Positions 35,125-40,720 of a DNA stretch of 64,000 nucleotides are shown piece by piece. The translations under genes were made by a program, and so were the position numbers. Origin of the DNA: Nocardioides sp. CFH 31398 (lineage in GTDB: Bacteria; Actinomycetota; Actinomycetes; Propionibacteriales; Nocardioidaceae). Numbering within the stretch: the first letter of the stretch is position 1; each line of letters opens with the position of its first letter. The notes under the pieces were generated by a model that saw only the letters and a program-made list of their open reading frames with translations, was not told where the DNA came from and made no database searches. Location of the stretch: positions 124,001 to 188,000 of the forward strand of contig NZ_JAKUHT010000001.1 in the NCBI RefSeq assembly GCF_022436705.1, given 5' to 3'.

Positions 35125-35841
35125 TCACCCCGTCGGCCCGAACTGCTCCACCCGGATGATGTCCTTGCGCACCCCGACCTCCCCGAGCAGCCGCACGCCG
35201 TACGACGCGAAGCCGGGGGAGCCGCACACGTAGGCGCGCTCCACGCCCGCGGCGAGGGGCGCGACCTCGTCCGGATAGGGGGTGGCGGCCACGCGATCGC
35301 CCCGGTTCTCCCGGGTCGTCGCGACGAAGGCGCCGTGGGCGAGCAGCTCGTCGGCGTACGGCAGCTCGGCGAGGGTGCGCGTCACCGCGACCACCCGCAG
35401 CCGCTCGCCCGTCCCGAGCGTGCGGGCGTGCCGGAGCATCGAGACGACAGGGACCACGCCGGTGCCGCCGACGACGGCGATGCTCGGCGTCCGCCCGCCC
35501 CAGGTGAACCAGCGCCCGATCGGCCCGCGGACCTCGACCGTGTCGCCGACCCGCGCCTCGTCGTGCAGGTGGCCGGACACCTCGCCGTCCGGCATCACCT
35601 CGACGCAGAGCTCGAGGTGGTCGTCGCCGGGGGCGGAGGCGATGGAGTAGGACCGCTGGGCGGTGTAGCCGTCCTCGGCACGCAGCCGGACGACGCAGTG
35701 CTGGCCCGCGGCGTGCGTGAACGGGGTCTCGAGGGCGAGTCGCAGGTAGGCCAGCCTCCCGTCGCGCCGGACGTCGACGAGCGTGCCGGTCGTCCACGCG
35801 CCGGGGATCTCCGGGGTCCCGGCGAGCGGGGCGTCAGGCAT
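35125..35841 (-). CDS. FAD/NAD(P)-binding oxidoreductase (ferredoxin reductase-type)
   Basis: A 238-aa flavin reductase. The FAD-binding RSYSIAS motif, nucleotide-binding GGTGVVPVVSML and the C-terminal CGSPGF are the standard landmarks of the FNR superfamily; no [2Fe-2S] domain follows. The start ATG at 35841 overlaps the molybdopterin oxidoreductase stop by 8 bp, so the two are translationally coupled and probably form an electron-transfer pair in the cytoplasm. Confidence 0.9.
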   Translation of the reverse strand: MPDAPLAGTPEIPGAWTTGTLVDVRRDGRLAYLRLALETPFTHAAGQHCVVRLRAEDGYTAQRSYSIASAPGDDHLELCVEVMPDGEVSGHLHDEARVGDTVEVRGPIGRWFTWGGRTPSIAVVGGTGVVPVVSMLRHARTLGTGERLRVVAVTRTLAELPYADELLAHGAFVATTRENRGDRVAATPYPDEVAPLAAGVERAYVCGSPGFASYGVRLLGEVGVRKDIIRVEQFGPTG

Positions 35842-36448
35842 CCCCGACGTACCGCTGCTCGGTCCAGGGGTCCCCGAGGTCGTGGTAGCCGTACCGCTCC
35901 CAGAACCCGGGCCGGTCGACCTCGGTGAGCTCGATCCGCGACACCCACTTCGCGGACTTCCAGAAGTAGAGGTGCGGCACGAGCAGCCGCAGCGGCCCGC
36001 CGTGCTCGGGCGGCAGTGGACGGCCCTCGTGGTCCCAGACCACCCACGCGCGGCCACCGGTGACGTGCTCCAGCGGCAGGTTCGTCGTGTAGCCGGTGAC
36101 CGACTCGGCGACGACGTACGCCGCACGCTCCAGCGGCCCGGCCGCCTCGAGGAGAAGGTCGAGCGAGACGCCGGTGAAGCGGGTGCCCAGCTTCGACCAG
36201 CTGGTGACGCAGTGGATGTCCCCGGCGTACGTCGAGTGCGGCAGCGCCTGCAGGTCGGCGAGCGACCACGTGGTGGTCGAGGTGACGAGGCCGCCGACCG
36301 TCAGCGAGACCTGGTCGTCGCGCAGGTGCGGCTCGGCCTCGGCGGTGAGGACGGGCCACCCGTCGCCGACGTCGTGCTGGCCCGGGGGCAGCCGGCCCTC
36401 GCGGGAGACGGGCCGGCGGCGTCCGGTGAATCCACGGGTGACGGGCAC
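35834..36448 (-). CDS. Molybdopterin-dependent oxidoreductase, sulfite oxidase-like
   Basis: A 204-aa member of the sulfite oxidase/YedY molybdopterin fold. The likely molybdenum-ligating cysteine is C80 in IHCVTSWSK. It carries only the Mo-binding domain, without heme or dimerisation domain. There is no Tat signal, so it should be cytosolic, unlike MsrP/YedY. It is coupled to the flavin reductase gene downstream. The natural substrate of this small actinobacterial type is not established to my knowledge. Confidence 0.88.
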   Translation of the reverse strand: MPVTRGFTGRRRPVSREGRLPPGQHDVGDGWPVLTAEAEPHLRDDQVSLTVGGLVTSTTTWSLADLQALPHSTYAGDIHCVTSWSKLGTRFTGVSLDLLLEAAGPLERAAYVVAESVTGYTTNLPLEHVTGGRAWVVWDHEGRPLPPEHGGPLRLLVPHLYFWKSAKWVSRIELTEVDRPGFWERYGYHDLGDPWTEQRYVGDA

Positions 36449-36496: not shown

Positions 36497-37552
36497 TCAG
36501 GGACTGACCAGGATCTTCACGTTCTCCTCCTTGTTGTCGATCAGCTCGCGGAAGCCCTTCTCGACGATGTCGTCGAGGCCGATGCGTCCGGTGATGAACT
36601 GGTACGGGTCGACCTTGCCGTCGGCGATCAGCGCGATCGTGTCGGTGTGGTCGTCGCAGTAGGCCAGGCTGCCGCGGACGGCGACCTCGTTGAAGACGAG
36701 GTCGTTCATCGCGACGGTTGCCTCGTGGCCCCAGATGGCGACGTTGACGCAGGTCCCGCCGGCCCGGGTCGACCGGATGGCGGTGGCCAGCACCTGGTCG
36801 ATCCCCGCGCACTCGAACGACACGTCGGCGCGGCGCCCCTTCGTCAGCTCGGCCACCGCCTCGACGACGTCCGTCTCCCGCGGGTCGAGCACGTGGTCGG
36901 CGCCGGCACCGTGGGCCTTCTCCTTCCGGGCACGCGCGGGCTCGACGACGATCACCTCCTCGACCCCGACGGCCTTGAGCGACGCGGTCGTGACCAGCCC
37001 GATCGGACCCGCCCCGAACACGACCGCCGAGTGCGACGGCTGCGCCCCCGAGAGTCGGACGGCGTGGTACGCCACCGCCAACGGCTCGACCAGCGCGCCG
37101 ACGTCGGTGCCCAGCTCGCCGAGGGGGTGGATCCAGCGGCGCTCCGCGACGACGTGCTGCGAGAACCCGCCGCCCCCGCCGGAGAGCCCGACGAACCCGA
37201 GCGTGGCGCAGACGTTGTAGCGCCCCTGCTGACAGGCGTCGCAGCGCCCGCACACGATGTACGGCTCGACGACCACCCGGTCCCCCACCCGCAGGTCGGT
37301 GACGCCGTCACCGAGCTCGGCGACGACCCCGGCGAACTCGTGGCCGAGCACGATCGGCGCACCCTCCCCGGTGAGGGGGTGGGGCGCCTCCTGGGTGGGC
37401 GCGAAGATCGGCCCCTCCAGGTACTCGTGCAGGTCGGTGCCGCAGATGCCGCACCACTCCACCTCGACCTTGACGGTCCCGGGCGTCGTCGCGGGCTCGG
37501 GGACGTCGTCGACGCGCACGTCGCCGCGGGCGTGGAACCGGGCGGCCCTCAT
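36497..37552 (-). CDS. Zinc-dependent medium-chain dehydrogenase, 2,3-butanediol/threonine dehydrogenase-like
   Basis: A 351-aa NAD(P)-dependent alcohol dehydrogenase. Catalytic zinc ligands are C37 (in CGICGTD), H71 and E72; the four structural-zinc cysteines C101, C104, C107 and C115 are all present. The Rossmann motif GAGPIGLV follows at about 180. Overall it looks like (R,R)-butanediol dehydrogenase. Its start overlaps the monooxygenase stop by 4 bp, so the two enzymes act in one pathway: the monooxygenase could make an ester, alcohol or ketol which this enzyme oxidises or reduces (inference). Confidence 0.9.
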   Translation of the reverse strand: MRAARFHARGDVRVDDVPEPATTPGTVKVEVEWCGICGTDLHEYLEGPIFAPTQEAPHPLTGEGAPIVLGHEFAGVVAELGDGVTDLRVGDRVVVEPYIVCGRCDACQQGRYNVCATLGFVGLSGGGGGFSQHVVAERRWIHPLGELGTDVGALVEPLAVAYHAVRLSGAQPSHSAVVFGAGPIGLVTTASLKAVGVEEVIVVEPARARKEKAHGAGADHVLDPRETDVVEAVAELTKGRRADVSFECAGIDQVLATAIRSTRAGGTCVNVAIWGHEATVAMNDLVFNEVAVRGSLAYCDDHTDTIALIADGKVDPYQFITGRIGLDDIVEKGFRELIDNKEENVKILVSP

Positions 37553-39378
37553 GAGGTGTGGTGCACTTCCTGCTTGCCCCACACCGGGGTGTCGATGCCC
37601 TCGAAGCGCGCCTTCAGCTGCAGCGCGAGGTAGAGCGAGTAGTGGCGCGACTGGTGGAGGTTGCCGCCGTGCATCCACAGGTTCTCGACCTGCGTCGGCT
37701 TCCACATGTTGCGCTGCTCGCCCTCCCAGGGGCCCGGGTCCTTGGTCGTGTCGGAGCCGAGGCCCCAGCACTTGCCGAGGCGGTCCGCGGTCTCCTGGTC
37801 GACGATCTCGGCGACCCACCCGTTCATCGAGTTGTAGCCGGTCGCGAACACGACGAGGTCGGCCGGCAGCTCCGTGCCGTCGGTGAGGACGACGGCGTCC
37901 TCGGTCAGGTGCGAGATCTGGCCCTTCGCCAGCTTCACGTCCCCGTTCGCGACGAGCTCGGCGGCGCCCACGTCGATGTAGTAGCCGGAGCCGCGGCGCA
38001 GGTACTTCATGAACAGCCCGGAGCCGTCGTCGCCCCAGTCGTGGTCGAAGCCGGCCGCCTCGAGACGGGAGTAGAAGTCCTTGTCCCGCTCGGCCATCTG
38101 CTCGTAGGCGGGGATCTGGAACCGGTGCAGGATCCGGTAGGGCAGCGACGCGAAGGTCATGTCGGCCTTCTCGGTCGTCATCCCCGCCTCGAGCGCCCGC
38201 TCCGAGTAGAGGTCACCGAGGCCGATGTCCATCAGCGAGTCGGACTTCACGATGTGCGTCGAGCTGCGCTGCACCATCGTGACGTCGACGTCGTTCTCCC
38301 ACAGCGCCCCGCAGATGTCGAAGGAGGAGTTGTTGGAGCCGATGACGACGGCCTTCTTGCCCCGGTAGGCGTCCGGGCCGGGGTGGGCGGAGGAGTGGTG
38401 CACGTCGCCGGCGAACACGTCGACGCCCTCCACCTCGGGCATGCGCGGGCGCCCGGACATGCCGGTCGCGAAGACGACGTGCTTCGGGGTCAGCTGGTAG
38501 GTCTGGCCCTCCCGCTCGACCTCGACGGTCCACTCGCCCTTCGCCTCGTTCCACTGCGCCGAGAGCGCCTTGGTCGAGGACCAGTACGGGACCTCCATGA
38601 TCGTCACGTACGACTCGAGCCAGTCGCCGATCTTGTCCTTCGGCGCGAACACCGGCCAGTTGTCGGGGAACTTCAGGTACGGCAGGTGGTCGTACCAGAC
38701 CGGGTCGTGCAGGCAGAGGCTCTTGTAGCGGCTGCGCCACTGGTCGCCCGGCTTGGGGTGCTTGTCGATGACGAGGCTGGGGACGCCGAGCTGCCGGAGC
38801 CGGGAGCCGAGGGCGATGCCGCCCTGGCCGCCGCCGATGACGAGGACGTACGGCTGGGTCGTCGTCCCCAGCGTCTCGGCCTCCTCCTGGCGCTGCTCGG
38901 CCCAGGTCTTCCGCTGCTTGTTGGCGCCGTGCTCGGCGCCCATCGGACGGTGGGTGCCGCGGGGCTCCTCGTGGCCCTTCAGCTCGTACATCGAGGTCAG
39001 CAGCGTGAAGGCCTTGTCCTCGCCGTCCTCCTGGACGAGGCGGAGCAGGCCCCAGCCGCGTCCGACCGAGGTCTCGAAGCCGATCCAGGCGGTGACGACG
39101 CCGTCCGCCTCGGTGGCGGGCTCGGTGGTGGCCCAGCCGGTCGGGCGCGTGTTCTCCAGCGTGCCGTTCAGCAGGTCGGCGACCCCGGCCGGGTGCTCGA
39201 CGGTGGCGATGTTCCAGGTGAAGGCGATCAGGTCGCGCCAGTAGCTCTCGGCGGCGAACATGTGCGAGGCGCGCTCGACGTCGCCGGACGTCAGGGCGTC
39301 CTCGAAGCCCGACAGCCAGGCGTTCGCCCGGTCGTCGGCCGTGCCCTCGCTGGTCGGGCGCTCCAGGGTCTCGGTCAT
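37549..39378 (-). CDS. Flavin-containing monooxygenase with N-terminal NTF2/SnoaL-like domain
   Basis: A 609-aa fusion. Residues 1-135 resemble a SnoaL/NTF2-like domain; residues 175-600 form a class B FAD/NADPH monooxygenase. GGGQGG (about 182-187) binds FAD, GSNNSS (about 345) the NADPH site, and the late FATGYNSMNGW is the conserved ATGY motif. Family members hydroxylate N or S atoms or perform Baeyer-Villiger oxidation. ATG at 39378 has GAGGGAG upstream. It leads an operon with the dehydrogenase and is divergent from the GAF regulator. Confidence 0.9.
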   Translation of the reverse strand: MTETLERPTSEGTADDRANAWLSGFEDALTSGDVERASHMFAAESYWRDLIAFTWNIATVEHPAGVADLLNGTLENTRPTGWATTEPATEADGVVTAWIGFETSVGRGWGLLRLVQEDGEDKAFTLLTSMYELKGHEEPRGTHRPMGAEHGANKQRKTWAEQRQEEAETLGTTTQPYVLVIGGGQGGIALGSRLRQLGVPSLVIDKHPKPGDQWRSRYKSLCLHDPVWYDHLPYLKFPDNWPVFAPKDKIGDWLESYVTIMEVPYWSSTKALSAQWNEAKGEWTVEVEREGQTYQLTPKHVVFATGMSGRPRMPEVEGVDVFAGDVHHSSAHPGPDAYRGKKAVVIGSNNSSFDICGALWENDVDVTMVQRSSTHIVKSDSLMDIGLGDLYSERALEAGMTTEKADMTFASLPYRILHRFQIPAYEQMAERDKDFYSRLEAAGFDHDWGDDGSGLFMKYLRRGSGYYIDVGAAELVANGDVKLAKGQISHLTEDAVVLTDGTELPADLVVFATGYNSMNGWVAEIVDQETADRLGKCWGLGSDTTKDPGPWEGEQRNMWKPTQVENLWMHGGNLHQSRHYSLYLALQLKARFEGIDTPVWGKQEVHHTS

Positions 39379-39400: not shown

Positions 39401-39416
39401 TGTGGTCGGGCTCACA
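39401..39416. promoter_or_regulatory. CRP/GlxR-like site 1
   Basis: TGTGG-N6-TCACA, one mismatch from the CRP/GlxR consensus TGTGA-N6-TCACA. It lies 23 bp upstream of the monooxygenase ATG. Confidence 0.5.
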
Positions 39417-39445
39417 CAACCCCCCACGGGGACGGGACGGAAGGG

Positions 39446-39461
39446 TTGCAACGCGTTGCAA
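39446..39461. promoter_or_regulatory. Perfect 16-bp palindrome TTGCAACGCGTTGCAA, probable operator
   Basis: Exactly self-complementary and nearly central between the divergent genes. Its centre is about 61 bp upstream of the presumed leaderless start of the regulator gene, a common activator position. Best candidate for binding by the GAF-domain regulator at 39515. Confidence 0.65.
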
Positions 39462-39477
39462 TCCCGGCCCTTCGGTC

Positions 39478-39493
39478 TGTGGTCCCGATCACA
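39478..39493. promoter_or_regulatory. CRP/GlxR-like site 2
   Basis: TGTGG-N6-TCACA again, in the -35 region of the regulator gene, whose TAGGCT -10 box is at 39503-39508 and whose ATG follows 6 nt later. Confidence 0.5.
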
Positions 39494-39514
39494 CGGGCGA
39501 CGTAGGCTCCGCCC

Positions 39515-40720
39515 ATGACGGTGGGCGCGACGGCGGCGGTGGGGCCGGGGGTCGACCTCGACCTGCACGCCCGCTCGCTGCGCCGGGTCCACGACGCGTT
39601 CATGGGCGGCTCCGCGCAGGCCGCCGGGCCCCGGCCGGTCGTGACCCGCTCCTGGCAGCGCGTGCTGGACCTCGGCCTCGACCCGAGCCAGACGAACCCC
39701 CGCGGCCCGGTGGCGGCCGCCGAGCTCGAGCGCCGCCGTCGGACGTCGCCCCTCGCGCTGGTCGTCGACGAGATCCGCTCGGTGCTGACCAGCGTCGCGG
39801 ACGCCGCCCACTTCATCGTCGTCGTCACCGACGCGGACGGCGTCATCCTGTGGCGGGAGGGCTCTCCCGGCGTGCTGCGCCAGGCCGACCGCCTCGGCTT
39901 CCTCGAGGGCTCGGCGTGGACCGAGGGCCAGGTCGGCACCAACGCCATCGGGACCGCGCTCGCCGAGCAGGCGCCCGTCCAGCTCTTCTCCGCCGAGCAC
40001 TTCGAGACCGACCAGCACCCCTGGTACTGCACCGCGGCGCCCGTCCACGACCCCCGCACCGGGGCGCTGCTCGGCATCGTCGACGTCAGCGGCCCCGCGC
40101 TCACCCTGCACCCGGCGCTCGTCGCGCTCGTCGACACCGCCACCCGGCTCGCCGAGGCGCAGCTGCTGCACCGCCACGAGGAACGCCTGCGCGGCCTGCG
40201 CCGTTCCGCCGAGCACGTGCTCGCCGGCGTCTCCGGGCCCCACCTCCTCGTCGACGACCACGGCTGGGTCGCCCACCACTCCGGCGTCACCGTCCGCGAC
40301 CGCATCGCCGTCCCCAGCGAGCACCGCGCCCTCGCCGTCCCCGGCCTCGGGCTCTGCCTGCCCGAGCGGCTGGCCCAGGGCTGGCTGGTCCGGCCCCGCG
40401 GCGAGCGCCTCGCGGTGACCGCGCGGATCGTGCGGCGCGACGGCCGCGCCGTCCTCGAGGTCGACGGCACCGGCGAGGCCGACGGGTGGAGCACCCCGCT
40501 CTCCCCACGGCACGAGACGCTGCTGCGCGCCCTGCACGCGGCCGGGCCGGCCGGTCTGACCGCGGCCGACCTCTCCCGCCGGCTGTACGGCGACGACGAG
40601 CACCAGGTCACCGTCCGCGCCGAGGTCTCGCGCCTGCGCCGCGTGGCCGGCGCGCTCGTCGCGACGTCGCCGTACCGGGTGGCGGACGGTGTTCACCTGG
40701 CGGTCCGCCAGCAGGGGTGA
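39515..40720 (+). CDS. GAF-domain transcriptional regulator with C-terminal winged helix
   Basis: A 401-aa regulator. The N-terminus (SWQRVLDLGLDP) and the following GAF domain (about residues 75-205, with FLEGSAWTEGQVGTNAIGTAL) match the sensor part of AcoR/MimR-type activators. The sigma-54 AAA+ domain of AcoR is missing; instead residues 330-395 look like a winged-helix module (GLTAADLSRRLYGDD, VTVRAEVSRLRRV). It probably senses a small alcohol or ketone and controls the divergent monooxygenase operon. The transcript appears leaderless. Confidence 0.83.
   Translation: MTVGATAAVGPGVDLDLHARSLRRVHDAFMGGSAQAAGPRPVVTRSWQRVLDLGLDPSQTNPRGPVAAAELERRRRTSPLALVVDEIRSVLTSVADAAHFIVVVTDADGVILWREGSPGVLRQADRLGFLEGSAWTEGQVGTNAIGTALAEQAPVQLFSAEHFETDQHPWYCTAAPVHDPRTGALLGIVDVSGPALTLHPALVALVDTATRLAEAQLLHRHEERLRGLRRSAEHVLAGVSGPHLLVDDHGWVAHHSGVTVRDRIAVPSEHRALAVPGLGLCLPERLAQGWLVRPRGERLAVTARIVRRDGRAVLEVDGTGEADGWSTPLSPRHETLLRALHAAGPAGLTAADLSRRLYGDDEHQVTVRAEVSRLRRVAGALVATSPYRVADGVHLAVRQQG

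Follow-up and report, generated by a model that had tools for sequence, protein, structure and literature searches.

What is the operator in the control region between a monooxygenase gene and a divergent gene for a GAF regulator in Nocardioides sp. CFH 31398, and what does it control? We analysed a stretch of 64,000 nt containing this locus, referred to as the window. A first-pass annotation had described the intergenic DNA as a divergent control region in which a fully symmetric 16-bp palindrome is flanked by two CRP-like sites. The motifs were found as described, all of them between the two genes: TTGCAACGCGTTGCAA is present at 39446–39461 and its symmetry is perfect, its centre lies about 61 nt 5′ of the regulator ATG at 39515, and TGTGG-N6-TCACA occurs exactly both at 39401–39416 and at 39478–39493. 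The locus has the following features.

36497–37552, minus strand: gene for a zinc alcohol dehydrogenase of the (R,R)-butanediol dehydrogenase family, 351 aa (PDB 6ie0, E 7.8e-88).
37549–39378, minus strand: gene for a type II flavin-containing (Baeyer-Villiger) monooxygenase (FMO), 609 aa (PDB 8acs, E 3.2e-260).
39401–39416, no strand: FMO-side CRP/GlxR-like dyad TGTGGTCGGGCTCACA, suggested by TGTG-N8-CACA enrichment.
39413–39419, minus strand: candidate -10 of the monooxygenase promoter, TTGTGTG, placed by register only and overlapping the FMO-side dyad.
39439–39445, minus strand: GNAAGNG box (CNCTTNC on the minus strand) with conserved columns, candidate -35 of the monooxygenase promoter.
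39445–39460, plus strand: direct repeat GTTGCA-N4-GTTGCA (consensus RTTGCA-N4-RTTGCA), predicted site of the GAF/OmpR-type regulator.
39478–39493, no strand: regulator-side CRP/GlxR-like dyad TGTGGTCCCGATCACA, suggested by TGTG-N8-CACA enrichment.
39503–39508, plus strand: candidate -10 TAGGCT of the regulator promoter, 6 nt 5′ of the ATG; a leaderless transcript is predicted.
39515–40720, plus strand: regulator gene, 401 aa, with a predicted DhaR(N)-like GAF part (residues 40–240) and a predicted OmpR/PhoB-type winged helix (residues 301–393).

Within the window TTGCAACGCGTTGCAA was the sole match at up to three mismatches (0.06 expected). In the 4.4-Mb genome it was the sole match at up to two mismatches, with one further place at three. 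We compared the regulator regions of 80 genome-collection loci (80 kept of 93) and of further loci, 111 regions with the window included, which were thinned at 85% regulator identity to 73 non-redundant regions. The anchor for this comparison was TGCA-N6-TGCA, which is symmetry-neutral, being compatible with inverted and direct repeats alike. It was present in 60 of the 73 regions, while any other spacing from 0 to 20 was found in at most 5, and dinucleotide shuffles gave a mean of 0.34 and a maximum of 5. All 60 anchored sites carried the direct repeat RTTGCA-N4-RTTGCA, and a palindrome was seen in a single one of them, the copy in the window. When one mismatch was allowed, the repeat was found in 71/73 regions. 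G at position 0 and T at positions 1 and 11 were invariant (60/60 each), and position 10 was G in 48 and A in 12 sites. The palindrome partners varied, with A in 5 sites at position 6 and in 15 sites at position 16. The locus nearest to the window is L033 of an uncultured Nocardioides; its regulator is 94% identical, and a G at position 6 already breaks the palindrome there. On the monooxygenase side the repeat is adjoined by the CNCTTNC box, of which columns -6, -3, -2 and 0 are conserved; minus-strand column 3 was T in 66/66 regions.

Because positions 6 and 16 vary while T1 and T11 are invariant, the alignment identifies the direct repeat as the conserved unit, and RTTGCA-N4-RTTGCA together with the GNAAGNG box on the monooxygenase side as the conserved element. 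The same comparison makes the palindrome a chance feature of this genome within the conserved direct repeat. The proposed operator was thus conserved in relatives as a site but not in its symmetry, and the palindromic operator was rejected by the symmetry-neutral test. It is very improbable that TTGCAACGCGTTGCAA is an inverted-repeat operator, bound by the regulator in the form of a symmetric dimer. The perfect symmetry in this genome would fit such binding, but the symmetry is confined to the window's own copy among the 60 sites, its partner positions vary, L033 breaks it, and the predicted fold of the DNA-binding domain is of the OmpR/PhoB type, normally a binder of tandem repeats. We replace the misleading palindrome by a predicted operator with a defined register of two half-sites, -35 and -10. 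A perfect-looking palindrome can arise by chance inside a conserved direct repeat.

The regulator matched GAF in Pfam with 34.5 bits, above the cut-off. Its AlphaFold2 model had a mean pLDDT of 89.8 (67-row alignment). Residues 40–240 superposed on E. coli DhaR(N) (4lrz) with Z 27.5 and rmsd 1.8 over 199 aligned residues. Residues 301–393 superposed on VicR (Z 10.6, rmsd 2.0, 85 aligned), followed by PhoP (Z 9.8) and the DNA-bound structures of AdeR (9.6), PhoB (9.4) and GlnR (9.2). Trans_reg_C was the top C-terminal Pfam match in all six regulator members tried, at scores below the Pfam cut-off of 26.2 (16.7 bits for the window protein and 23.5 at best, for L035). When the 106-residue C-terminal domain was searched alone, no Foldseek match fell below E 0.001 (PhoB and PhoP ranked first, at E 0.02–0.03), and phmmer with the single C-terminal domain against the PDB gave no match at E 1. 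A 67-row profile gave weak matches only, to the response regulator 7lz9 (E 0.017) and to AfsR (E 0.029). The NCBIfam DhaR model matched residues 40–191 only, with 72 bits against a cut-off of 551. Neither a receiver domain nor a sigma-54 AAA+ domain was found in the 401-aa protein, for which Pfam (E up to 0.001) yielded GAF only, and a Fis-type HTH was absent from the C-terminal Pfam matches up to E 10. A sigma-54 promoter, prompted by TTGCA and by AcoR-like GAF proteins, was dropped because the AAA+ domain was not found. Many residues of the VRAEVSRLRR segment are invariant. As modelled, the regulator joins a GAF sensor resembling DhaR to a winged helix of the OmpR/PhoB type. Domains of this type normally bind tandem half-sites spaced by roughly one turn; 1gxp is PhoB with pho box DNA. 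The conserved site that adjoins the regulator gene, a direct repeat in 60/60 cases, is predicted to be bound by the regulator.

The 22-bp site GNAAGNGTTGCANNNNRTTGCA was also run alone on 394 genomes of the class, which returned 13 sites in 13 genomes. A homologue of the regulator (E 1e-50) was present in 86/394 genomes overall and in 11 of the 13 genomes with a site, a co-occurrence with a Fisher p of 1.7e-6 (6.5e-6 without the window genome). Regulator and site were on the same contig in all 11 genomes, 55 to 6980 bp apart. The site in genome G627 precedes a monooxygenase gene, yet no regulator was found there at E 1e-50. Another copy (L129), in the 1.4-Mb genome G544, falls within an open reading frame; G544 is also without the regulator, and this copy is probably due to chance. 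The sites adjoined a monooxygenase gene in L121, L122, L123, L125, L128 and L131, a butanediol dehydrogenase-like gene in L124–L128 (L124 matches 6ie0 with E 9.8e-75), an E1alpha gene in L132 and L133, and the regulator gene in L122, L123, L130 and L131. At L130 no enzyme gene was recognised on the far side of the site from the regulator. The oriented form TGCAAY-N4-TGCAACNCTTNC pointed to an enzyme gene at 11 of 12 sites (L129 excluded).

The position of the site relative to the promoters was similarly regular when columns were counted from repeat position 0 towards the enzyme gene. All five butanediol dehydrogenase-like promoters had TAGAAC or TAGGAA at column 27 (four promoters) or 26 (one), and both E1alpha promoters had TACCAC at column 27. 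Of the monooxygenase promoters, 38/66 had TGTG[CA]N starting at column 26 or 27. TANNNT occurred four times in the 66 FMO-side segments (4126 positions), three times at columns 26–27 and once at column 3. A -10 of the monooxygenase further downstream of the dyad was rejected, since no TANNNT was present there in the 66 segments. The window's own monooxygenase -10 candidate is weak (TTGTGTG). With -10 candidates at 26–27 nt, CNCTTNC would therefore occupy the -35 position with the repeat just upstream, as for a class II activator. The regulator promoter was clearer: TANNNT followed the dyad by 9–10 nt in 18/22 regions (control, 1.0% of positions), and the start codon followed TANNNT by 6 nt in 7 of these 18 loci. 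In the butanediol dehydrogenase-like genes of L124–L128 a -10-like hexamer lies a few nt before the ATG, and leaderless transcripts are predicted.

The two CRP-like sites are unsurprising in the window alone, as at least two matches to TGTGG-N6-TCACA with one mismatch allowed were obtained in 55/100 shuffles of the window. Genome-wide, 18 sites matched TGTGR-N6-YCACA and 2 matched the reversed pattern. The window dyads account for two of the 18, and the sites are mostly close to gene starts (judged by eye, 15 loci). A divergent monooxygenase gene and the repeat were present in 66 of the 73 regions, and two FMO-side segments of ≤20 nt were omitted from the shuffle test. The counts for TGTG-N8-CACA were 32/64 regions on the FMO side and 16/66 on the regulator side, against shuffle means of 0.08 and 0.105; on the regulator side TGTGG-N7-CACA within one mismatch occurred in 22/66. 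The FMO-side dyad ended 23–26 nt from the repeat in 31/32 regions, the exception being the window with 28 nt. N6 spacing matched in 11 regions, 10 of which also matched N8 owing to CACACA runs. At the butanediol dehydrogenase-like sites a dyad was located 9–10 nt from the repeat in 5/5 cases, and at the E1alpha sites no dyad was found. Exact dyads were present on both sides in 5/66 regions and on neither side in 25/66; the exact two-dyad layout of the window is rare.

Outer letters (TGTG/CACA) and spacing of both window dyads fit TGTGA-N6-TCACA, and one half of each is TGTGG. The genome has a CRP homologue gene (L117) that matches 3i54 with E 8.6e-76, and 3d0s and 4cyd were also among its best matches. 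3i54 and 3d0s are CRP of M. tuberculosis, and 4cyd is GlxR. In total, the genome gave four cNMP-binding matches. The three further ones (G000:C17:29258-29524, C43:107259-107522 and C30:250860-251096) might each compete for the dyads. The dyad overlaps the -10 candidate at the monooxygenase promoter, lies between repeat and -10 at the butanediol dehydrogenase-like promoters, and precedes the -10 by 9–10 nt at the regulator promoter. Because the dyads overlap or adjoin -10/-35 candidates in three promoter types, repression is expected. We infer that CRP uses the dyads, where it most likely serves as a repressor, or brake, on the core promoters. The consensus of GlxR is TGTGA-N6-TCACA, and GlxR activates ldhA in C. 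glutamicum and represses aceA (PMC7999487). It is possible, though rather doubtful, that the dyads are instead activator sites or belong to another protein: GlxR can activate, as for ldhA (PMC7999487), the genome holds four cNMP-binding matches, and both window dyads have TGTGG rather than the consensus TGTGA in one half, but a protein bound over or near the -10 candidates of three promoter types should block the polymerase. The earlier picture of a switch that combines a pathway regulator with carbon-status control held in part. A conserved site beside the GAF regulator gene occurs together with dyads, and carbon-status control is plausible; the position of the dyads on core promoters makes repression the expected effect.

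Residues 21–609 of the window monooxygenase match the type II FMO 8acs (E 3.2e-260), which is JsFMO with a SnoaL-like N-terminal domain (PMC10028610). Homology searches with the dehydrogenase were run with 343 of its 351 residues, the first 8 being absent; 6ie0, an (R,R)-butanediol dehydrogenase, was the best PDB match with 298 bits, and the next best had 172. The ATG of the dehydrogenase gene overlaps the monooxygenase stop as ATGA (37549–37552, minus strand). This arrangement is kept in L033, which has a 95% relative of the dehydrogenase in the corresponding place. Because of the ATGA overlap, the two genes are assigned to the same operon, and their translation is probably coupled. A monooxygenase was found in 76/80 genome-collection regulator loci, and the tight operon of the window is not general, because just 9 of these 76 also had an ADH-type match (flank ≤3.5 kb). 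At L099, L105 and L013 a dehydrogenase (79–80%) was near the regulator, and no monooxygenase was seen in the flanking DNA examined (short for L013). Downstream of the dehydrogenase gene, at 35125–36448 (minus strand), the window has two overlapping genes. One encodes a 204-aa protein of the sulfite-oxidase/MsrP-like kind, the other a 243-aa flavoprotein that is ferredoxin-reductase-like; L035 has relatives of the MsrP-like (52%) and ferredoxin-reductase-like (39%) proteins beyond its regulator.

Other site-bearing loci hold related enzymes. At L142 (G278) the monooxygenase and the regulator are clustered with a dehydrogenase gene that carries the site, with an acetoin reductase (340 bits to TIGR02415, cut-off 304) and with the acetaldehyde dehydrogenase ExaC (969 bits, cut-off 900). 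In L140 and L141 E1alpha and E1beta genes are at the site, and the regulator is 5.5–7 kb off. The best models for E1 at the L132 and L133 sites were those of pyruvate dehydrogenase E1 (alpha 319 bits, cut-off 394; beta 334 bits, cut-off 321), and pyruvate dehydrogenase was also the top PDB match. Since the E1 proteins score as pyruvate dehydrogenase-like, a role of E1alpha/E1beta as acetoin dehydrogenase is only a guess. The gene company suggests, as the probable ligand of the regulator, acetoin, 2,3-butanediol or another C4 ketone or alcohol of this kind.

Taken together, we consider it likely that a PhoB-like activator on the tandem operator drives an acetoin/2,3-butanediol-type regulon, and that CRP most likely represses both promoters. 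RTTGCA-N4-RTTGCA would abut the -35 region of the operon that encodes the monooxygenase and the butanediol dehydrogenase. We infer that with ligand present the regulator binds as a head-to-tail dimer to the two half-sites, which are spaced by one helical turn, and would then activate transcription from a class II position beside the -35. Dyads lie on both core promoters, that of the operon and that of the regulator gene with its predicted leaderless transcript, and CRP bound there would repress both.

More distant homologues bear on the direction of control. We scanned 450 bp upstream of the regulator at 41 further homologue loci, mostly of 41–50% identity. The repeat was exact in 16, had one mismatch in 6 and was not found in 19; at three of the 19 (L167, L171 and L173) an exact site instead precedes a butanediol dehydrogenase-like gene. 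In 46 homologue loci an exact site was present in 25 and the control pattern in none, a count that includes L140–L143, chosen for having the site. With the enzyme queries used, the neighbour genes of homologues below 50% identity were mostly unrecognised. At L169, L183 and L188, three loci with the repeat that were read closely, the regulator and the gene upstream of it are co-directional, and an enzyme gene in divergent orientation was not seen. The argument from polarity fails there, and the repeat may autoregulate the regulator gene, either in addition or at these loci only. In two loci of one genus (L162 and L163), 50%-identical regulators have the variant repeat TTGCA-N5-CTGCA and are divergent from a 606-aa open frame in place of the monooxygenase. 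We regard it as improbable that the tandem repeat is mainly autoregulatory in general, with a secondary or repressive effect on the divergent operon, although some distant loci do have it upstream of the regulator with no divergent enzyme gene recognised. The spacing to the FMO-side dyad is nearly fixed (23–26 nt in 31/32), the offset from the repeat to the regulator-side dyad ranges from 0 to 69 nt (22 loci), and sites are also present 2 to 7 kb away from the regulator, in front of butanediol dehydrogenase-like and E1alpha genes. These points count against a mainly autoregulatory role.

An extension of this activator model, which we regard as unlikely, assigns a reaction to the monooxygenase. 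Type II FMOs in actinobacteria would be oxygen-dependent Baeyer-Villiger enzymes that cleave acetoin (or diacetyl), and the regulator would be an actinobacterial AcoR in which a PhoB-like domain replaces the sigma-54 machinery. The butanediol dehydrogenase would produce acetoin, oxygen insertion by the FMO would give an unstable hydroxyethyl ester that yields acetate and acetaldehyde, and ExaC would oxidise the acetaldehyde. Genomes with E1alpha/beta under the same operator would cleave by a dehydrogenase complex instead. A distant echo of such a pathway comes from mice without FMO5, itself a Baeyer-Villiger FMO, for which 2,3-butanediol is a marker in urine (PMC9393927); acetoin is not proposed as an FMO5 substrate in the available text of that study (PMC9393927).

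Compared to known systems, the regulator is closest in its sensor to the sigma-54 dependent activators DhaR and AcoR. Its approximately 200 N-terminal residues superpose on DhaR(N), and its gene company likewise includes acetoin/butanediol-type enzymes. In contrast to DhaR/AcoR, the sigma-54 AAA+ domain and the Fis-type HTH were not found by Pfam, and the DNA-binding part is OmpR/PhoB-like. Residues 301–393 share the fold of the OmpR/PhoB family (1gxp; 8hig, GlnR-DNA; 5x5l, AdeR-DNA) with Z 9.2–10.6. PhoB promoters have tandem half-sites one turn apart beside the -35, the same layout as the RTTGCA repeat beside the candidate -35. Unlike in OmpR/PhoB response regulators, no receiver domain was found here, and the half-site is TTGCA with a period of 10. 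The dyads have the spacing of actinobacterial CRP/GlxR sites, and a CRP homologue is present in the genome; they differ in the TGTGG half and in their position over core-promoter candidates.

The CadC1 domain is presumably OmpR-like. An AcoR-like regulator with a CadC1 HTH is located near the smo monooxygenase genes of M. chubuense NBB4 and was named without experiment (PMC8784404). It apparently follows the same idea of an AcoR-like sensor with a CadC/OmpR-type HTH, and no operator is given for it in the available text of that article (PMC8784404). The operator was not found in the open-licence literature searched, including a search with the exact motif letters, and absence there proves little. 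Each part is of a known kind; the literature searched showed no case in which a DhaR-like sensor, an OmpR-type domain, a tandem TTGCA operator and this regulon come together. The predicted operator assigns a predicted regulon to GAF/OmpR-type regulators, a group that has been little studied. Type II FMOs are known mainly as biocatalysts. JsFMO (8ACS), a close relative of the window monooxygenase, was studied as such, and the word 'physiological' is absent from the main text of that work (PMC10028610). The predicted regulon offers type II FMOs a possible physiological setting, and the shared operator would give them a natural job if the unlikely acetoin-cleavage reading were true.
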